From IMG/VR virus record IMGVR_UViG_3300009430_000010, positions 1-24,153 of that record: 24,153 bases of DNA; one strand, given 5' to 3'. Positions 15,459-24,153 of this stretch are shown piece by piece (position 1 is the stretch's first letter; the number at the start of each line of letters is the position of its first letter). The stretch comes from a virus. The translations under genes were made by a program, and so were the position numbers. Under the pieces are notes generated by a model, which was not told the origin of the DNA, made no database searches, and saw only the letters and a list, made by a program, of their open reading frames with translations.

Positions 15459-16332
15459 CCGGGTACACCATGATCGCGTCGAGTCCGGGGACGTATGGCT
15501 CGCCGCGAAAATTCAGAATGTTGTCGAAGCGCGCCTTGCACGTCGCCACGGTCTTGTCGCAGCCGGGGCGCATCGTGCCCGTGTCGCCTACCTCGGGCGG
15601 GTAGCCGATTGGAAGGAACAACGTGACCTGGGCGATGCCTGCCTCCTCGGGCGAGCCGACGCCCCACGCGGCAATCTCCATCGACCGCCCCGCGTTCGGC
15701 CCGCTCGTGAACGTGAAAATACCGCCGACGTAGTAGGCGGGGTCCGTGCTGCTCGCGCCCGTCACGATGAACCGGCGACGATCCACGACGCTGTCGATCA
15801 TCACGCTTTCCGTCAGCGCGGCGATGTCCACGCCGCAGCGGGAATCACCCAGCTCGGCGCGACACTCCGGCCCGTATATCTGCCCGTTGGCGGCTTGCGC
15901 CAGTTCCGCGAAGCCGCGCAGCTCGGTCTTGAACAGCCCCTCTGGCGTGGCGATGCACTCGCCGAGCCAGCCGCGCCTGAGCTTCACCTCGCCGAGCGAC
16001 AGGTCGGCGTAGTTCACGGCACTGACGTACACCTCGGCACCGTCGAACAGCCCTGCGCGCAGCTCCTCCACCGTGATGCTGTCGTCGTCGAAGAACGCCA
16101 TGACCTCCATGTCGTCGACGTTCAGCCCGGCCTGGTTGCTGACGGCCGACTTGTTGAATCCGCCGCTGGCGCGGTAGGTATTCTGCGGCGAGCCTGCCGG
16201 GAACAGGATGTCCTGGTCGTGCGTTGTGAAATAGAACTCGACGCCGTCCTGGCGGACGATCTTCCACAGCAGCGCGATGGTCGTCACCTCGAGCCCGAGG
16301 TGAGCGTTCATGCCGCTGGTCGTGGTCTTCAC
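15448..16332 (-). CDS. DUF2163 tail protein
   Basis: This 294-residue protein starts at a GTG that overlaps the DUF2460 stop. It has the DUF2163 pattern: TIALLWKIVRQDGVEFYFTT with HDQDI, SNQAGLNVDDMEVMAFFDDD, GWLGECIATPEGLFKTELRG and, at the C-terminus, CDKTVATCKARFDNILNFRG with the conserved cysteines. In gene transfer agent-like tails this is a hub or tail-tip component joining the distal tail ring to the hub protein. The gene order with DUF2460 upstream and NlpC/P60 downstream supports the call. A later Met (MNAHLGLEV) is an alternative start. Confidence 0.9.
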   Translation of the reverse strand: MKTTTSGMNAHLGLEVTTIALLWKIVRQDGVEFYFTTHDQDILFPAGSPQNTYRASGGFNKSAVSNQAGLNVDDMEVMAFFDDDSITVEELRAGLFDGAEVYVSAVNYADLSLGEVKLRRGWLGECIATPEGLFKTELRGFAELAQAANGQIYGPECRAELGDSRCGVDIAALTESVMIDSVVDRRRFIVTGASSTDPAYYVGGIFTFTSGPNAGRSMEIAAWGVGSPEEAGIAQVTLFLPIGYPPEVGDTGTMRPGCDKTVATCKARFDNILNFRGEPYVPGLDAIMVYPDVK

Positions 16333-16958: not shown

Positions 16959-18925
16959 CAATTCTTCCTCGCGCTGGCCCTGGACAGCGCCGAGGACATG
17001 CGCGCCTGGATCTGCGTCTCGGTGCGGCGGAACGAGTCGGCGTCGGGCGTCTGGATGTTCATGGTGATCTGGATCGGCCGCTGGTTCCTGCCATTGCCGT
17101 CGATCGGCTCGATGGTGGCGCCCCTGGGCCCGGCGAACGCCAGCTCGGGCCCGCGCTCGCCGACGATCCCCCAGCTGTTGGGCTTCATGTAACCGCCGTC
17201 GGCAAATTTCGGCAGCACGCCCACCAGGCCGCCGAGCCAGCCGCCCAGCCCTTTCGCGCCCGATGTCAATGCGCCGAAGATCTGCGCCGCCAGCGCCTCG
17301 GCCGCCATCCGCTTCAGCGCCTGCGCCCACTGCAGGACCATGCCGTCGACGCCGTCCTCAAACGAATTAAACAGCGCGTCCGCCATGATGTCCTGCATGT
17401 TGCGCATCGCCTGATCCCAGAACACCGTCAGCTTTTCCGACGTGTCCTCGGCGACGTTGACCTGATCGGCAAGCGCCAGGCTGACTTTCCTGATGGCGGC
17501 TTCCATCTGCTCATACGTCAACAGGCCCTTGTCGTGCAGGATGTAGTAGCTATCGATCGCGTCGCTCGCGAGGTCGTACTCGGTCTTCAGCCCCTCGATG
17601 ACGCTGGCGGCCTGGTCCTCGAGCTCGGCCCGTTCCCGCGCGGCCTGCGCCGCCGCCTTCTCCTGTGCCTCGAGCTCGACGAGCTGCGTGGTCAGCGCGA
17701 GCAGCTGCGCCTTGTACGGCTCGGCCGCCGCCCCCGCGGTCTCGAAGGTCTTCGCGAGGTCGCCCTGGGTGATTCGGTAGGCAAGCGCCGCCGCCTCGCC
17801 CTGGTCGAACGTGGCGACCTGCTGCTCGAGCGCATCGACCATCTTCTGGATCGACTCGAGCGCCTCGTCGGTTGCCGACTTGACCTCACGGACTGCGCTC
17901 GCGGTGCGGCGAGCGGCCTCGCTGCTGCCTGCCGCGAAGCCAGGCGCCTGGCCGGTTGGCTGGCTCGGCTGGCGGTTGTGCCCGCCCGGGGCGATGCGAC
18001 GCGCCTGGCCTGCCTGGTCGAGCGCCTGCATCTCTCGGGCGAGATCGAATGGGCTGGTGCCGAGGCCGTTCTTGCGGAACGCTTTGCCAACCGCCTCCCA
18101 TGCCTGCGCCAGCGTCAGAACGCGCGGCGTCGTGCTCAGGGCGTTTTGCATCGCGTTGAATACGGTCACGAGCGACGGCGTGACGGCGACGGTCAGCGTG
18201 CGGACCAATCCCTCCCAGCTGGCGTTCAGCCGCTTGAGCGCATCGTCAGCCGCCGCGAGCTGCTTGACCTGGTCCTCGGACAGCGAGGCGCCCAGCCGGA
18301 CGGCCTCCTCGCGGGCCTTGCGTATGCCCGCGGCGCCCTGCTCGAACATCGGCAGCAGGTCGGCGCCGGCCTTGCCAAATAGCTCTGTCGCGGCGCGGGC
18401 CCGGTCGGCGGGGTCGGTGAGCTGCGAGATGCGGTCGGCGATCAGCTCGAACTGCCGATCTGGCGCGAGCTGACGCAGGGATGCGAACTCGATGCCGAGC
18501 GCCGCGAATGTTTCCTGCGCGGCCTTACCCCCAGAGCCGGCCTGGGAGATCGAGACCTGCATCTTCTTGAAGGCGGTCGATAGCGACGACAGCTCGATGT
18601 CGCTCATCTTGGCGGCATAGGCGAGCTCGCTGAACGCCTGGGCGCCGACGCCGGTCTTCGCGGAGGCTTTGTTGATCTCGTCGCCGTACTGGATCGCCTT
18701 CTGCGCGGCACTCGCCAGGCCGCGGGTGATCGCGACGAACGAAATGCCGAGCCCGATGGCGCCAAGTGCGCGATTGAACGTCTGGAAGGAGCGGTTGATC
18801 CGCTTGAGGGAAGAGTTGGTGTTTTTCTCGAAACGACCGAGGCGCGCGTTGGCCTGGTCGAGCTTCTTTTCGTACTCGGCGGTCTGCGCCGAGAGCTTCA
18901 CGACGAGCCGCGCGAGGTCTGTCAC
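16958..18925 (-). CDS. Tail tape measure protein, 655 aa
   Basis: This protein sets tail length and is ejected with the DNA. It starts at a GTG overlapping the GT fusion stop. It has an N-terminal coiled coil (LSAQTAEYEKKLDQANARLG), a hydrophobic segment (LGAIGLGISFVAIT, near 53-66) and a lambda-loop-like region ASAKTGVGAQAFSELAYAAK typical of tape measures. Long Ala/Gln-rich helices follow. The C-terminus has FADGGYMKPNSWGIVGERGP, the usual tape-measure ending. At roughly 0.15 nm per residue, a known rule of thumb, the tail would be about 100 nm. It follows the G/GT chaperones, as in lambda (H). Confidence 0.93.
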   Translation of the reverse strand: MTDLARLVVKLSAQTAEYEKKLDQANARLGRFEKNTNSSLKRINRSFQTFNRALGAIGLGISFVAITRGLASAAQKAIQYGDEINKASAKTGVGAQAFSELAYAAKMSDIELSSLSTAFKKMQVSISQAGSGGKAAQETFAALGIEFASLRQLAPDRQFELIADRISQLTDPADRARAATELFGKAGADLLPMFEQGAAGIRKAREEAVRLGASLSEDQVKQLAAADDALKRLNASWEGLVRTLTVAVTPSLVTVFNAMQNALSTTPRVLTLAQAWEAVGKAFRKNGLGTSPFDLAREMQALDQAGQARRIAPGGHNRQPSQPTGQAPGFAAGSSEAARRTASAVREVKSATDEALESIQKMVDALEQQVATFDQGEAAALAYRITQGDLAKTFETAGAAAEPYKAQLLALTTQLVELEAQEKAAAQAARERAELEDQAASVIEGLKTEYDLASDAIDSYYILHDKGLLTYEQMEAAIRKVSLALADQVNVAEDTSEKLTVFWDQAMRNMQDIMADALFNSFEDGVDGMVLQWAQALKRMAAEALAAQIFGALTSGAKGLGGWLGGLVGVLPKFADGGYMKPNSWGIVGERGPELAFAGPRGATIEPIDGNGRNQRPIQITMNIQTPDADSFRRTETQIQARMSSALSRASARKN

Positions 18926-19517
18926 GGTTTCTGGTCCTTCGGTTTAGCGGCGCGGCGGAAGAACGACACGATATTCGCCACCTTCGCCTGGTCCGCCGCC
19001 GGGCGATCGGTCAGCATGAAGTCGGCGTGGCTGAACGCCCGCGTGCCCCTCGAGCGGTGCACGTTGGCGATCACGGAGGCGACCAAACCGGCGTGGAGGT
19101 TGTCGCGCCACGCGCCCCACGGCTCGACCTGCCAGTAGGCGATCCAGTCGTCGAGCTCGCGCGCCGACAGGCCGTGCTCGATCTGCGCGACCGAACAACC
19201 GAGCCCCAGAGCGAGGCGGTGCAGAAACCTGCGCTCGGGGCTCAGTCGTTTTTTTCGTCGACCTCCACGCCCAGCCCGTTGAGGGCCAGTATTGCCGAGA
19301 GCAACTGGTCGACGACCGCCACCGGGTATTCGGCCAGGTCCTCCGCGTTGATCGCGGGCGAGACGACACAGCTGGCGATCATGTGGAACAGCGCCGCCTC
19401 CGGGTCCTCGGCCTTGCGCCGGCCGAACTCGGAACGCTGCGCCGGCGTCCACTCGCGGATCGTGAGCGACTGGCCGCGGACCTCTATGACCTTCTCGGTC
19501 AGCGGAAAGAGGCTCAC
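18922..19517 (-). CDS. Tail assembly chaperone GT fusion made by -1 frameshift
   Basis: The second chaperone product is predicted to read through gene G by a -1 shift at the A-AAA-AAC site (19254-19248) and continue in the overlapping frame to 18922, giving about 198 residues. The T part starts RLSPERRFLHRLALGLGCSV and includes AQIEHGLSARELDDWIAYWQ, a DUF4035-like tail assembly T sequence. It has no credible start of its own. Lambda G and GT use the same logic: GT binds the tape measure and recruits tail tube subunits. Its stop overlaps the tape-measure GTG. Confidence 0.85.
19201..19254 (-). promoter_or_regulatory. Programmed -1 ribosomal frameshift signal
   Basis: The heptamer A-AAA-AAC (19254-19248) is in the correct frame in gene G. 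Four bases downstream a hairpin begins: GAGCCCCGAGCG (19243-19232) pairs with CGCTC-T-GGGGCTC (19213-19201), 12 pairs with one bulged T around an 18-base loop. The G stop codon lies two codons past the slip site. Both parts match well-known signals. Confidence 0.88.
19242..19517 (-). CDS. Tail assembly chaperone G (unshifted product), 91 aa
   Basis: The unshifted product starts MSLFPLTEKVIEVRGQSLTI, contains IREWTPAQRSEFGRRKAEDP and ends VEVDEKND. Size, position between tail tube and tape measure, and the frameshift at its end all mark it as the G-type chaperone. The ATG overlaps the tail-tube stop (ATGA). Only a fraction of ribosomes would shift to make the longer form, so G should be in excess over GT, as in lambda. 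Confidence 0.88.
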   Translation of the reverse strand: MSLFPLTEKVIEVRGQSLTIREWTPAQRSEFGRRKAEDPEAALFHMIASCVVSPAINAEDLAEYPVAVVDQLLSAILALNGLGVEVDEKND

Positions 19518-19936
19518 GGGTGCGTAATCACGCCGCTGATCTTGAACGTGAACAGCACACGGTTGGGGTCACTGAGCGACGGCTGCAGCTCCCAGCCGAT
19601 GCACGCGCACCGGAAGGCGTAGATTTCGGTCGGGCTGCCGTTCTCGAATCGCACCTGGAAGTTGCGCGACGCTTTGTTGTCGACGTCGTCCATCATGGCG
19701 CCTCGGATCTCGTCGCTCATCTCGTAGTTCGTGGTGAGCGTGAACTCCTGACCGTCCGACAGGCCCGGGATGTACTCCTCGGCACCGCCCGAGCAGGTGT
19801 CAGTCGCCCGCACCAGGGCATTCTGCGCGCCGAACCCGCCCAGGTCGGTGACGTTGCAGATTTTCGTGAAACCTTCCGGCGAAGCGCCGTCGCCCCGATA
19901 GAAAAACCACTCGCCGACAAATGCTTGAGTCGTCAT
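19514..19936 (-). CDS. Major tail tube protein, 140 aa
   Basis: This beta-rich protein starts MTTQAFVGEWFFYRGDGASP, with FTKICNVTDLGGFGAQNALV, ATDTCSGGAEEYIPGLSDGQ and the C-terminal FTFKISGVITHP, a usual tail-tube pattern of siphoviruses. It polymerises into the hollow tail. The neighbours fit: tail completion upstream, G/GT chaperones downstream. A GAGG sits nine bases before the ATG. High expression would be expected, but nothing in the sequence tests that. Confidence 0.82.
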   Translation of the reverse strand: MTTQAFVGEWFFYRGDGASPEGFTKICNVTDLGGFGAQNALVRATDTCSGGAEEYIPGLSDGQEFTLTTNYEMSDEIRGAMMDDVDNKASRNFQVRFENGSPTEIYAFRCACIGWELQPSLSDPNRVLFTFKISGVITHP

Positions 19937-19947
19937 CGCACTGCACC

Positions 19948-20352
19948 TCAGATTGCATGCCAGATGGAATAGGTCCGCGAGACCCGATACAGGCCCGGCT
20001 CGACATCTAGCAAGTCGAGCGCGTTGCCTTCGAGGTTCACCCTCGAAACGTGCACCGAGCCCATGAGCCCGGTGTGATTGACCAGCGCGGCCCGCACCGC
20101 ATCGGCGAGCGCCGCGGCGTCGCCATAATTACGGGCATACGCATCAATGCGCACCGACGTGCCCGCGTAGTCGGGCGCGCCGCAGGTGTCGATCGGCTGG
20201 TCGCCGCCGACGCGCTGGTAAACGAGGCACGGCAGCTTGCTCGCCTCGTTGTAGACGTGCTGCGGGATCGCGAGCGGATAGATCCGCGTGCCCGCCAGTG
20301 CGGCGACCGAAGCATCGGCCGCGAGATGGGCGTAGAGCGCTTCCTGGATCAT
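19948..20352 (-). CDS. DUF3168 tail completion/terminator protein
   Basis: The 134-residue protein has the DUF3168 pattern: MIQEALYAHLAADASVAALA, GTRIYPLAIPQ, KLPCLVYQRVGGDQPID, SVRIDAYARNYGDAAALADA and GLYRVSRTYSIWH at the end. Such proteins cap the tail tube or join tail to head. The ATG overlaps the stop of the HK97 gp10-like gene (ATGA). Confidence 0.88.
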   Translation of the reverse strand: MIQEALYAHLAADASVAALAGTRIYPLAIPQHVYNEASKLPCLVYQRVGGDQPIDTCGAPDYAGTSVRIDAYARNYGDAAALADAVRAALVNHTGLMGSVHVSRVNLEGNALDLLDVEPGLYRVSRTYSIWHAI

Positions 20353-20795
20353 GCCCGGGCTGCCGCAGCGGCCCGGCGGCGGGCGATCCGCTCGATCCGG
20401 GTGCGCATTTCAGAGGCGATCTTTTGCACGGCGGCGTCCTTGTTCGACTCGAACGCGGGTGTCAGCCAGGGCGTGGCCGGGTACTTCGAAGTGCCGAGCT
20501 CGATGAACTGCAGCGCGTAGTAGGCCTCGGGCGCCACGCCGACCATCGCGGTCGCAACGGTCTTATCCTTGCCGACCCATGTCTTGAGCCGCAGGCTCTG
20601 CTGCGCGAAGCCGGGCTCGACGGTGCGGCCCTTGTAGGTCTTGTGCGCCTTGCTGCCGATCGGCACCGTGGCGAGCGCCTGGCGATAGGTCGGCAGCATG
20701 GCCTCCATGACGGCGGCCTTCAGCACGCGACCCGAAGTCGCCTTGCCGAGCTCGGCCAGCTGCTTCGACAGCTCGCGGGTGCCTTCAAGAGCCAT
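20349..20795 (-). CDS. HK97 gp10-like head-tail joining protein
   Basis: The protein is 148 residues when started at ATG 20795 (MALEGTRELSKQLAELGKAT). A TTG nine bases upstream is in frame but sits directly against the GAGGGG element, so I prefer the ATG. The HK97 gp10 pattern is visible: ELSKQLAELG, SLRLKTWVGKD, YYALQFIELGTSKYPATPWL, TPAFESNKDAAVQKIASEM. These proteins connect the head completion complex to the tail. The N-terminus overlaps the end of the head closure gene by 11 bases. Confidence 0.9.
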   Translation of the reverse strand: MALEGTRELSKQLAELGKATSGRVLKAAVMEAMLPTYRQALATVPIGSKAHKTYKGRTVEPGFAQQSLRLKTWVGKDKTVATAMVGVAPEAYYALQFIELGTSKYPATPWLTPAFESNKDAAVQKIASEMRTRIERIARRRAAAAARA

Positions 20796-21153
20796 CGTAG
20801 GCAAACCCCTCGGCGCCGCGCTGCCTGCACATCAGGTGGACCTCGCGGTCGCGTTCCTGCCAGTTGATGACGGACAGCACGTCGTAGTAGTGCACCAGCC
20901 CGGGCGAGCCCGGCTCGGAGACGAACACGACGCGCAGCTTCTCGTTCAGGCCCGGGCGGTAGCGCAGCCGGATCCGGGTATTGACCTCGGAGGACACCTG
21001 CGCGGCGGCGAAGTACTCGCGGCCGGCGATCGGCTCGACGCTGGCCCACACTTCGGCGACGTCCGCCCACGACCAGGTGACCTCGCCCGTGAGCTCCGTC
21101 GTCTCGACGCGGCGCTGCAGCGTGATGCGGTGCCTAAGCCTGCCTGCGCGCAC
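20785..21153 (-). CDS. Head closure protein (SPP1 gp16-like)
   Basis: The protein is 122 residues, from a GTG preceded by a near-perfect AGGAGG six bases upstream. The sequence follows the phage head-tail joining family: AGRLRHRITLQRRVETTELT, GEVTWSWADVAEVWASVEPI, AGREYFAAAQVSSEVNTRIR, then LVHYYDVLSVINWQERDREV. The family closes the head-tail channel after packaging. The start lies within the end of the 47-aa gene (20-base overlap). Confidence 0.9.
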   Translation of the reverse strand: MRAGRLRHRITLQRRVETTELTGEVTWSWADVAEVWASVEPIAGREYFAAAQVSSEVNTRIRLRYRPGLNEKLRVVFVSEPGSPGLVHYYDVLSVINWQERDREVHLMCRQRGAEGFAYDGS

Positions 21154-21277
21154 GGTCGGCCTCCTGGCGCAGCTTTTCCTCGGCCATGCGCCGCTCGAGG
21201 TCCTCGAGGCGCCGGCGCACGGGTCCGGGCATCACCTTGCGGGCGGCCGCGCAGGGCTTGCAGGGCTCGCGCTTCAT
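21134..21277 (-). CDS. Small late gene, 47 aa, CxxC motif
   Basis: The ATG overlaps the gp6-like stop (ATGA) and the TAG lies inside the head closure gene. The protein begins MKREPCKPCAAARKVMPGPV, with a CKPC pair, and ends in a charged helix (RRLEDLERRMAEEKLRQEAD). The only other Cys or His residues are absent, so a single CxxC would need a partner to bind metal. Conserved position in a packed operon suggests it is real. Function unknown. Confidence 0.6.
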   Translation of the reverse strand: MKREPCKPCAAARKVMPGPVRRRLEDLERRMAEEKLRQEADRARRQA

Positions 21278-21573
21278 ACGCCGAGGCAGGCCCGGTACGG
21301 GAACAGCAGCCGCTCGACGGCCGGGTTCGGCTTGATCTCGAAGTCGACCTGCGCCTCGCGGTTCTCGTAGAGGTCGGCGACGATCATCAGCACGGCGATG
21401 CGGATCGGCGCCGGGCGGTCGTTCGGGCTGCCGAGCAGGCCCTCTTCGGTCAGGTTCAGGAAGTTGAGGACGTGCGCCTCCGCCGCCTCGATGTACGCCT
21501 CGAGCAGCGTGTCGTCGGTGTCGATCTCGACCCGGCAGTGCTCCTTGGCTTCGATCAGGTCGGTGAATATCAC
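21274..21573 (-). CDS. gp6-like head-tail connector protein, 99 aa
   Basis: The GTG at 21573 overlaps the stop of the upstream transferase gene; the longer frame to 21612 is a shadow of that gene. The pattern IFTDLIEAKEHCRVEIDTDD, TLLEAYIEAAEAHVLNFLNL, PAPIRIAVLMIVADLYENRE and AVERLLFPYRACLG fits HK97 gp6-like connectors. These proteins form the ring below the portal. It is the first recognisable head-tail gene after the glycosyltransferase cassette. Confidence 0.9.
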   Translation of the reverse strand: MIFTDLIEAKEHCRVEIDTDDTLLEAYIEAAEAHVLNFLNLTEEGLLGSPNDRPAPIRIAVLMIVADLYENREAQVDFEIKPNPAVERLLFPYRACLGV

Positions 21574-22280
21574 GCGGCGCGCTCCTTCATTCGGTGCTGC
21601 TCGGCCCACCACAGGTCCGAGTGCTCGGCCTGCTCGTAGCCGGCCATGAAAGGCATTCCGAGTGTGTAGTGAGCGAGCTGGACGCCGGCCGGGCGCGGCT
21701 GGACGCCGACCAGCCAGTTCCAGGTGTTCGGCAGCTCGCCGATCTCGGCGTCCGCCAGCCAGCAGAACTGGTGCAGATCACGGCCCGGTACGTCGTTGAC
21801 CATGCGCAGCGTCAGGCTGCGGTTCGACGGGTGATCGCAGTTGAACAGCATCACGCTCGACCAGTTCTTGCGCCGGTAGCGGGTCTGCTCGCAGCCATCC
21901 ATCTTCACGCCCTCATCGCCGGCGTGTTCGTGCTTGACGCACATGACCGCGTACTGCGGGTCGGCGAGCGCGAAGAGCCGCGCCACGTCGCCCAGGAACA
22001 GCATGTCGCAGTCGATAAACAGCGCCCAGCCGGTCTGCGCGAGGATCGGCGTCAGGAACCGGGTGTTCGAGAACTCCGTCGAGCACGGCGCGTCCGAGAG
22101 CACGTCCCACAGCGAATTGCGGTGGATCCGGTAGGGCCGCTGAGACAGCCCGCAGGCCTTGAGCTTGTCGAGCACCAGCGGGGTGACCGTGGTCGGCCGC
22201 GTGGCATGGCGGCGCATCGAGAACTCGGCGACCTTGTAGGCCGCGTCCTCGCGGGCGTCGTAGCCGATGTAGACCTTCAC
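21570..22280 (-). CDS. GT8-like GT-A glycosyltransferase, 236 aa
   Basis: The protein starts at a GTG overlapping the FkbM stop (VKVYIGYDAREDAAYKVAEF). The GT-A fold is indicated by the nucleotide-binding start, TEFSNTRFLTPILAQTGWAL and the metal-binding FIDCDML (D90 and D92). Further blocks YAVMCVKHEH, KMDGCEQTRYRRKNWSSVML, PGRDLHQFCWLADAEIGELP and LPNTWNWLVG are typical of a phage and bacterial family of nucleotide-sugar transferases. Donor and acceptor are unknown. A longer frame to 22736 is only a shadow of the methyltransferase. Confidence 0.8.
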   Translation of the reverse strand: MKVYIGYDAREDAAYKVAEFSMRRHATRPTTVTPLVLDKLKACGLSQRPYRIHRNSLWDVLSDAPCSTEFSNTRFLTPILAQTGWALFIDCDMLFLGDVARLFALADPQYAVMCVKHEHAGDEGVKMDGCEQTRYRRKNWSSVMLFNCDHPSNRSLTLRMVNDVPGRDLHQFCWLADAEIGELPNTWNWLVGVQPRPAGVQLAHYTLGMPFMAGYEQAEHSDLWWAEQHRMKERAA

Positions 22281-23017
22281 GGCCACACCATGAAGTAGTC
22301 GCCGCCGATGCAGTCCGCGGCCTTCATGCCGAGGCCCTGCAGATAGCCGAGCGCGCCGTCGCGCTTCAGGCCCATCCGCGCGTCCTCGCCCTTCTGTTCG
22401 ACAACCATCACCGGGCGGCAGCGCAGCAGGGTTTTCTCCGCACCCTTGACGACCGAGGCCTCGAGGCCCTCGACGTCGATCTTGATCAAGTCCACGTCCA
22501 CGAACCCGAAGTGGTCCAGCGTGGTCATCGGCACATCGCCCGCCCCGCTCACCTGTGTGTGACCACTGTGGCCTTCGTAGACCTTGAGCCCAACGGTCGT
22601 CTCTGCCTTGCCGAGCGCCACGCGGCGCAGCAGTGCGTTCTCGGCCGTTACGTTCCAGCGCCACAGGTCCGCCACGATCGGATTCGGCTCGAAGGCGAAC
22701 ACGAACTGGAAGTGCTTGACGAGCTGCATCGACCACAGGCCGACGTGCGCGCCGATGTCGACCGCCCGCCGGCGCCGATCGGCCGGCACGAACTGCAGCG
22801 CCCGCTCGAGCTTGCGGTACTGGTAGGTGAGCTGGCCGTCGACCTCGCGGCGGGTCGTGTCGTGCACCAGCATCTCGACCAGGTGCTTCTCGTTCGAGGG
22901 CAGCCAGACGCCGCCTACGAGCCGGGCGTTCGCAGGACCGACGCCAGCGCCGTCCGAACGACGTCCGGCGTGATCCGTGACCACGCCCGATCGCACGCTG
23001 GGTGCTTCACTCTCCAT
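22277..23017 (-). CDS. FkbM-family SAM-dependent methyltransferase, 246 aa
   Basis: The SAM-binding motif VDIGAHVGLWSM (86-97), FEPNP (109-113), the FkbM signature LIKIDVEGLEASVVKGA (177-193) and VVEQK (205-209) are all present. FkbM enzymes O-methylate sugars, among other substrates. The ATG at 23017 has GGAGG seven bases upstream and was chosen for that. It gives a 103-base overlap with the upstream GT9-like gene, so a shorter start cannot be excluded. Downstream it overlaps the GT8-like gene by four bases. With three sugar transferases nearby, methylation of a glycan is the simplest role. Confidence 0.85.
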   Translation of the reverse strand: MESEAPSVRSGVVTDHAGRRSDGAGVGPANARLVGGVWLPSNEKHLVEMLVHDTTRREVDGQLTYQYRKLERALQFVPADRRRRAVDIGAHVGLWSMQLVKHFQFVFAFEPNPIVADLWRWNVTAENALLRRVALGKAETTVGLKVYEGHSGHTQVSGAGDVPMTTLDHFGFVDVDLIKIDVEGLEASVVKGAEKTLLRCRPVMVVEQKGEDARMGLKRDGALGYLQGLGMKAADCIGGDYFMVWP

Positions 23018-23649
23018 CCCACTGCCTCCGGGTCATCCACCGCCAGATTGACGTGCAGGTCATAGCCGGTATTGGCCGGGCGGATCATTCCGCCGAACAG
23101 CACCACGACCCGTCTGCCGAGCGCCGCCGCCGCATGGTGCAGCGCCCCCTCGGGGAAAACCGCGCCCTCACAGCCGGCGATCAGCCGGCAGGCGTCGGTG
23201 AAATCGCGCGTCTCGATCGGCTCCACGCCGTCGAGCCACACCGTGCCGACGTTGCCCGGCTGTGCCCAGGGCACCTCCGGGTAGGCGTACACGAGCTCCT
23301 GCCAGCGGCCCCACTGCTTGTTCGGGCTGGCCGTGCGCTTGATGTGGGGCTCGACGAGCACTCGCCCGGCCGCGCGCGGGTCCGGCTCGATGGGCGCCAA
23401 CCGGGCCGCCCGGCAGCGCCAGGAGGTAAACGCCCACCGCAGCTTGTTGCTGCGCCGGTAGTCGACATACGGCCGGCAGTTCGGTCCGTTGACGATGGCG
23501 GGGAAGTCGCCCCGCTCATCCGGTCGGACGATATTCGACCCCGCCCACAGCGGGTGCCAGCGTCGCTCGCCCCGGTGATTGAGCACCTGCACTCGGTGCG
23601 GGTGCTTCTGCGCCTGCCCCAGCGCCATCAGTTCGTCGCCGAGTCCGAT
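22915..23649 (-). CDS. GT9-like (heptosyltransferase-type) glycosyltransferase, start codon abnormal
   Basis: The frame reads IGLGDELMALGQAQKHPHRV at its N-terminus, an expected 'G-x-G-D-E-L' opening for the family. It continues with HPLWAGSNIVRPDERGDFPA, RTASPNKQWGRWQELV and the donor-site block FPEGALHHAAAALGRRVVVL with FGGMIRPANT. The GxGDEL opening lies before the first ATG (23628), and no standard start codon exists between it and the upstream in-frame stop at 23664. AAGGAG ends seven bases before the ATC at 23649. Either ATC is used, or one base (T) is missing between 23650 and 23651, which would create ATG-ATC. A shortened protein from ATG 23628 would lose the motif. Confidence 0.7.
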   Translation of the reverse strand: MGLGDELMALGQAQKHPHRVQVLNHRGERRWHPLWAGSNIVRPDERGDFPAIVNGPNCRPYVDYRRSNKLRWAFTSWRCRAARLAPIEPDPRAAGRVLVEPHIKRTASPNKQWGRWQELVYAYPEVPWAQPGNVGTVWLDGVEPIETRDFTDACRLIAGCEGAVFPEGALHHAAAALGRRVVVLFGGMIRPANTGYDLHVNLAVDDPEAVGWRVKHPACDRAWSRITPDVVRTALASVLRTPGS

Positions 23650-24153
23650 CTGCGTTCTCCTTCAGGCGCGCCCAGGCCTCGCCAGAGCTCATTTCCCGCG
23701 GGGTCCACTGGTGGCCCGCAATCCGGGCGAACAGCTCGCGGCGCGCCTCCAGCGACGGACGGTAAGGGTTCTCGATGTGGCTGAACGCCGTCCCGAGCCG
23801 CGCGGCACAAAACGACCTCTCCGTCACGATCACCGGCAGGCCGTAGGCCAGCGCGTCCAGCGCCACCGCGCTCGAGTGGGTGACGACGATCCAGGCATTC
23901 TGCAGGTCCTGCTCGAGCGACACCTGGCGACGGTAGCGACCCATCGGCTTGAACCGCAGCCGCAGGTTGCGCGAACTGTGCTTGCGAACCTGGTTGCGCA
24001 CATGGTCCAAATACTGGCGCATCGACAGCGTGGACCAGCGCGCGTAGAACTCCTGCGACTGCACCGCGACCAGCACATGGCGGCCGCCGCGGTACTCGGG
24101 CCGGATCTGCACGCCCAGCCGGTCGAAGCGCGCGTAATCGGGCTCGCCGGTGC
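23516..24153 (-). CDS. Capsule/CDP-glycerol-type transferase, N-terminus cut by window edge, C-terminus probably frameshifted
   Basis: About 211 residues are visible; the start is beyond the right edge (the GTG at 24112 is internal to an open frame). GGRHVLVAVQSQEFYARWST and then WIVVTHSSAVALDALAYGLP with VIVTERSFCAARLGTAFSH look like the C-terminal nucleotide-binding half of capsule or CDP-glycerol-type transferases (GT-B fold). The sequence looks natural up to EAWARLKENA (near 23651). The last 45 residues (Arg, Gly, Ala and Pro-rich) run antiparallel in composition to the overlapping GT9-like gene and look like out-of-frame reading. One missing T at 23650/23651 would give a TGA here. Confidence 0.6.
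   Translation of the reverse strand, partial: TGEPDYARFDRLGVQIRPEYRGGRHVLVAVQSQEFYARWSTLSMRQYLDHVRNQVRKHSSRNLRLRFKPMGRYRRQVSLEQDLQNAWIVVTHSSAVALDALAYGLPVIVTERSFCAARLGTAFSHIENPYRPSLEARRELFARIAGHQWTPREMSSGEAWARLKENADRTRRRTDGAGAGAEAPAPSAGAQSPGRATLAPAVGGVEYRPTG

Follow-up and report, generated by a model that had tools for sequence, protein, structure and literature searches.

A putative mobile virion-glycosylation cassette in the late structural operon of a temperate phage

Capsid (and tail tube) subunits of the mycobacteriophages Che8 and Rita carry glycans (Freeman et al. 2023, as cited in excerpts of PMC11256854 and PMC12619734). Maf enzymes O-glycosylate serine or threonine residues, and the cytidine monophosphate (CMP)-activated form of 3-deoxy-D-manno-octulosonic acid (Kdo) can serve as donor, Kdo adding 220 Da (PMC11339370). 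What GT8, GT9 and FkbM genes do in phages is for the most part unproven. Here we analysed a virus fragment of 24,153 bp (the window), in which three glycosyltransferase (GT) genes and an FkbM methyltransferase gene lie upstream of the head-tail adaptor gene Ad1; the loci compared with it are designated by L-numbers. We propose, with a probability of roughly 65%, that these genes form the 3' half of a cassette that is mobile, expressed late and serves to glycosylate the virions of a temperate phage. As the initial annotation had described, four consecutive, overlapping glycan genes occupy this part of the late structural operon, at 24151-21570 on the minus strand.

23516..24151, minus strand: compact glycosyltransferase of GT-B type resembling Kdo transferases (KpsC/WbbB fold), truncated at its 5' end by the contig edge
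22915..23628, minus strand: GT9 (heptosyltransferase-like) glycosyltransferase (Pfam, family profile)
22277..23017, minus strand: FkbM-family S-adenosylmethionine-dependent methyltransferase (Pfam PF05050, family profile)
21570..22286, minus strand: GT8-like glycosyltransferase with a conserved DxD motif, start GTG at 22286 or 22280
21570..21573, minus strand: GTGA stop/start overlap, where the 3' end of the cassette joins the adaptor gene
21274..21573, minus strand: head-tail adaptor Ad1 (gp6-like), first structural gene past the cassette
20785..21153, minus strand: head closure protein Hc1

Each glycan gene overlaps its downstream neighbour, by about 100 nt at the first gene/GT9 and GT9/FkbM junctions and by 4 or 10 nt between FkbM and GT8, depending on the GT8 start; the last gene, GT8, shares the GTGA at 21573-21570 with the start of Ad1. 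Neither promoter-like matches nor minus-strand terminator-like matches were found in 18900-24153, as would be expected of a single late transcript. From right to left, the minus strand continues with Ad1, Hc1, a gp10-like gene, tail terminator, tail tube and tape measure, followed by DUF2460, hub, a tail protein and endolysin. At 3.5-7 kb, genes for an integrase, a RecT-like and a Gam/Gp157-like protein stand on the plus strand; the left end of the window holds a primase/helicase-like gene. The ratios of nonsynonymous to synonymous substitution rates against L003 were 0.12 for GT8, 0.24 for FkbM, 0.30 for GT9 and 0.65 for the first gene, so that the four genes are maintained. Since the phage encodes an integrase, one could imagine that the cassette acts from the lysogen, as a moron, in serotype conversion or superinfection exclusion. 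This seems very unlikely: about 15 kb separate the cassette from the integrase, it sits within the structural operon and has no promoter-like match of its own, and the window genes lack the transmembrane (TM) segments typical of Gtr systems, no clear TM segment being found in the cassette enzymes tested. A Gtr-type conversion proper, with membrane GtrA/GtrB/GtrC proteins encoded by the integrase and att, was rejected for four soluble-type genes at that distance.

The identity of the FkbM gene is certain at the sequence level (PF05050, E 1.4e-14, 55.1 bits for a cut-off of 22.7), and its family profile matches the solved FkbM structure 2py6 (E 5.5e-10). As a single sequence, the GT9-like protein falls under the Pfam cut-off (18 vs 22 bits); its family profile matches the ADP-heptose lipopolysaccharide (LPS) heptosyltransferase II 1psw (E 1e-8) and 2gt1 (E 1e-5), which points to a relationship with solved GT9 enzymes. 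At 23628-23650 of the window, this gene has no standard start ahead of the conserved IGLGDEL, which lies just upstream of the ATG at 23628; the true start may therefore precede this ATG by a few codons. We also considered a frameshift between the first gene and GT9; it was not supported, and relatives use a GTG at that place. The GT8-like protein belongs to PHROG 28018 (E 3.7e-53) and scores 15.3 bits with Pfam GT8, below the cut-off of 24.3, with an E of only 0.032 for 5gvv; its DxD motif is present in 10 of 10 relatives.

The first gene has complete homologues in L003 and L332; its real C-terminus is likely near 23640, the frame continuing over the GT9 start. We modelled its family from the L003 homologue with AlphaFold2 (mean predicted local distance difference test score, pLDDT, 87.8). 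The top 23 Foldseek matches of this model, all with E <= 0.001, were Kdo transferases, and it aligned with KpsC at Z 10.6 over 197 residues. The predicted structure is a GT-B fold closest to the retaining beta-Kdo transferases (GT99/GT107), the nearest solved structures being KpsC, WbbB and KrkA; the initial label of a capsule-type transferase was thus right in fold. As for an assignment to the KpsC family (GT107), the fold fits and the nucleophile column does not: in a hidden Markov model alignment of the first-gene family, the column of KpsC D160 holds P/S/Y/F/A and no conserved Asp. DNA-glycosylating phage GTs are known (cited in excerpts of PMC12619734), and the window enzymes might in principle hypermodify phage DNA. 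We give this hardly any credence, as the enzymes are of LPS, capsule or protein types, the cassette is placed with virion genes, and no gene for hypermodified-base synthesis is among those annotated.

The full cassette can be seen in relatives. In L003 and L004, whose adaptor is 95% identical to that of the window, the order is protease, major capsid protein (MCP), a small gene, a Maf-like gene and a 94-amino-acid TM/coiled-coil protein, then GT-B, GT-B, GT9, FkbM, radical SAM/SPASM, GT8 and Ad1. The head side of the window lies past its right edge, where L003 and L029 show protease and MCP. Further glycan genes had been expected there, and L003, L029 and L332 bear this out; we infer that the upstream genes of the window's phage are like those of its relatives. 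L332 was considered as the upstream remainder of this phage and set aside as a different strain (74.5% over the common first gene). Close relatives vary in gene content, the window being without the radical SAM gene and L009 carrying another gene instead; in L199, quite different GTs fill the MCP-Ad1 slot, again with a Maf-like gene first. At both of the sites discussed below, the cassette begins with the gene for this single-TM coiled-coil protein (L003:3909-4193, L005:3899-4189, L009:3783-4076); a GGAGG-type ribosome-binding site precedes the gene, and the product is a candidate anchor or holin-like protein. Several cassette phages also encode collagen-like (GXY) proteins just before the adaptor or Maf-like gene (L024:11609-12439, L018:1-324, L296:3-1244), with a carbohydrate-binding-like end in L024 and L018.

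A feature that the initial annotation had missed is that the cassette is, to judge from the comparison of relatives, mobile between two late sites. L003 (3895-8717) and L005 (3889-8714) have in common a contiguous block of 4.83 kb with 87% DNA identity, located between MCP and Ad1 in L003 and between DUF2460 and hub in L005. The L003 counterparts of DUF2460 and hub abut, and so do those of the window:

16329..16332, minus strand: DUF2460/hub junction, the alternative (tail) site; empty in the window, filled by the cassette in L005/L009-type phages

At either site the block ends by overlap with a structural gene, and GT8 is the terminal cassette gene. In the FkbM tree, L003 (head site) groups with L005 (tail site) with support of 93/95, so the history of the cassette differs from that of the site; the GT8 tree shows a weak grouping by site (66/92). 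One cassette lineage per site was accordingly rejected. We also surveyed 99 loci fetched with Hc1 or DUF2460, 77 of which have both DUF2460 and hub; in none of the five with glycan genes did these lie between DUF2460 and hub. Holin- and lysozyme-like genes occupy this gap in the related tail modules L218, L224, L226, L236 and L240, and the junction therefore looks like a general cargo slot.

We then looked at the surroundings of GT8 relatives in 80 viral and 80 genome loci. Thirty-seven viral loci were T4-like; structural genes (portal, MCP, Ad1, Hc1, sheath) were nearby in 29 of the other viral loci and in five genome loci, including Mesorhizobium, Bradyrhizobium and Rhodospirillaceae. Cassettes of an equivalent kind stand beside portal, MCP, Ad1 or tail sheath genes within the structural operons of unrelated phages and prophages. 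After removal of three duplicates, Maf-like genes were counted in 23 of 31 structural-context loci vs 3 among the 112 T4-like loci and genome loci of non-structural context (Fisher p 8e-17, an indicative value, the surveyed loci being related to each other). Moreover, an independent search anchored on the Maf-like protein placed 8 of 9 distinct loci among MCP/Ad1/Hc1/gp10 genes, and in L304 and Pseudomonas phage D3 a lone Maf-like gene stands between MCP and Ad1.

The Maf-like family is PHROG 4603, labelled 'alpha-2,3-sialyltransferase'. Two Maf-like alignments diverged too much to be scanned against the collection, so single-protein queries were used. Its structural model (pLDDT 93.4) gave no significant Protein Data Bank match with Foldseek alone; with VIA-align, the best match was the Maf flagellin glycosyltransferase 5mu5 (Z 15.3, 185 of 205 residues), followed by CstII (Z 11.1). 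Profile-sequence comparison with CstII gave E 0.0024, and PF01973 reached 14.9 bits, for a cut-off of 34.6, in a related phage family, the main family being unmatched. By its structural model, the phage protein has a Maf/GT42 fold.

How this protein is made appears unusual. Among 69 Maf-like genes, some of them near-duplicates and many from related loci, so that counts are not of independent events, 29 have no ATG, GTG or TTG within reach of the conserved ASGPS-type motif. These start-less genes lie at most 700 nt from the MCP gene in 23 of 29 cases vs 4 of 40 for genes with a start. Of 21 distinct MCP-adjacent cases, 20 have a small post-MCP frame that overlaps the Maf frame in -1 relation past the motif. 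In-phase slippery heptamers, mostly CCCTTTN in GC-rich phages and AAAAAAG/A in AT-rich ones, occur in 10 of the 21 MCP-adjacent loci (1 and 1 in the other phases; codon-shuffle control, mean 1.1, maximum 6 in 2000). The CCC codon is found at -36 in 12, -42 in 3 and -54 in 2, and nowhere else within 69 nt. The L311 Maf frame opens at a TGA immediately ahead of CCC and that of L308 one codon ahead, which leaves no room for a standard start. Together, the start-less frames, -1 overlaps, in-phase heptamers, CCC positions and the L311 and L308 frames make a programmed -1 frameshift the likeliest origin of the Maf-like protein at MCP-adjacent loci of relatives. Downstream stimulatory RNA structure had z scores of -2.4 (L301) and -2.0 (L050), others being near 0 to -1.4. 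In phage D3, with the order orf6 (MCP), orf6.5, orf7 (Maf-like) and Ad1, an in-phase CCCAAAG stands at -36, at position 3483 of L351 (D3), and the Maf frame contains one GTG, 20 codons before the motif. The annotated start of D3 orf7 (L351, 3337-4055) is about 100 nt past where homology begins, and the N-terminus absent from the annotation lies in the -1 frame of orf6.5 behind CCCAAAG. P1 pmgO and P7 hdmB have their own ATG and no such slippery site. The Maf-like gene of L018 (324-938) also has a start of its own. The small post-MCP protein has a Ser/Pro-rich tail, which was considered as a glycan acceptor and dropped; this tail is read from the overlap with Maf and may only reflect dual coding.

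We therefore favour glycosylation of a virion protein. This reading fits where the cassette lies, the linkage of Maf-like genes to structural operons and their solitary occurrence in L304 and D3, as well as the chemistry known for Maf enzymes and mycobacteriophage capsids. A Maf/GT42-like enzyme would act first, in the cytoplasm while particles are being assembled, and attach a CMP-activated sugar (Kdo is plausible) to Ser/Thr residues of a protein of the capsid or neck. The KpsC-like GT-B, GT9 and GT8 enzymes would extend this primed sugar to a short LPS-inner-core-like glycan, and FkbM would O-methylate it; we infer the involvement of Kdo and heptose from the enzyme families. In relatives, small amounts of the initiating enzyme would be made as a -1 frameshift fusion to the small post-MCP protein, and this fusion could carry it to the capsid. 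The lack of clear TM segments in the tested enzymes makes a cytoplasmic acceptor feasible.

Several observations nevertheless weigh against this proposal. The window ends before the Maf-like gene, and in tail-site phages that gene stays separate, in the head module. None of the 37 T4-like loci has a Maf-like gene, and marine T4-like phages carry GT-B, GT8 and FkbM. The TM/coiled-coil protein accompanies the cassette and might anchor it at the membrane. Finally, chromosomal GT8 relatives are often linked to LPS-core genes, beside waaA and kdsA/B/D: of 75 chromosomal loci that lack phage structural genes, 17 have kds or waaA near the GT8 relative (labels read from the sequence of those clusters and not from a family scan). 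This last point is the main support for an alternative in which soluble GT9, GT8, Kdo-type transferases and FkbM modify the host LPS core late, acting on new lipid A-core at the inner membrane; this would keep released phage from binding to debris, or shut competitors out. The GT9 and KpsC-like folds, which are those of LPS and capsule enzymes, and the TM/coiled-coil protein that opens the cassette would also agree with it, as would the host-surface change proposed for cyanophage and jumbo-phage clusters (PMC2984593, PMC7824862). However, neither the linkage of Maf-like genes to virion operons nor the lone Maf-like gene by MCP has an evident role in LPS; the cassette genes examined include no flippase, ligase or acyltransferase; and late expression would leave little time for LPS remodelling. 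We consider LPS modification a real but clearly less likely alternative. Of the two hypotheses raised by the initial annotation, virion glycosylation has thus gained support, from the Maf-like linkage, the lone genes and the predicted frameshift fusion, and host LPS modification retains the many GT8 relatives beside waaA and kdsA/B/D.

Beyond this phage, many tailed phages may use a Maf-like O-glycosyltransferase made by -1 frameshifting from a post-MCP gene, which would be delivered to the capsid and prime a virion-protein sugar elaborated by a mobile LPS-type cassette; we regard the chances of this general scheme as even. A Maf-like initiator, its linkage to structural operons and the frameshift lead to the specific hypothesis of LPS-like sugars on phage particles. 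If true, virion glycans would affect phage adsorption, stability and immune recognition. Our literature search, limited to open-licence papers, returned nothing relevant on phage Maf or frameshifted phage glycosyltransferases.

Compared with described systems, the cassette resembles mycobacteriophage virion glycosylation in that the glycosyltransferases are phage-encoded. However, the GT genes of relatives such as Maravista are near the 3' end of the genome, according to the same excerpts, which mention neither a Maf-like, KpsC-like or GT9 set nor a frameshift; here, the genes interrupt the structural operon and move between two sites. The LPS-type clusters of cyanophages and jumbo phages (P-SSM2; PMC2984593, PMC7824862) also combine several GT families and are polymorphic between relatives, and T4-like marine contigs have the GT-B, GT8 and FkbM families in common with the cassette. 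For those clusters reviews propose host-surface alteration, and the T4-like loci surveyed here lack Maf-like genes; a further difference is that none of the four window genes is for sugar-nucleotide synthesis. KpsC (GT107) and WbbB (GT99) share the GT-B fold of the first gene, whose N-domain is much shorter and whose Asp160 column is unconserved. The flagellin O-glycosyltransferase Maf (PF01973; 5mu5; PMC11339370) is the best structural match of the phage Maf-like protein and is related to CstII, and both genes lie beside those of a self-assembling surface protein. The phage protein comprises only a core of about 200 amino acids, with about 10% identity to 5mu5, its proposed acceptor is a virion protein, and it is often entered by a predicted -1 frameshift. 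The relatives have a parallel in D3 orf6.5-orf7, with a Maf-like homologue, the MCP-small gene-Maf-Ad1 order and the in-phase CCCAAAG; D3 differs in having no other GT between MCP and Ad1. P1 pmgO and P7 hdmB are Maf-like homologues as well, P1 pmgO having its own ATG and a different operon; in phage P1 (L352, 4347-7002), pmgN-pmgO-pmgP-ppp-pmgQ, a single operon labelled morphogenetic, contains both the Maf-like gene and a gene annotated as a glycosyltransferase. The hypothesis is testable in established laboratory phages, in D3 and, for comparison without a frameshift, in P1.

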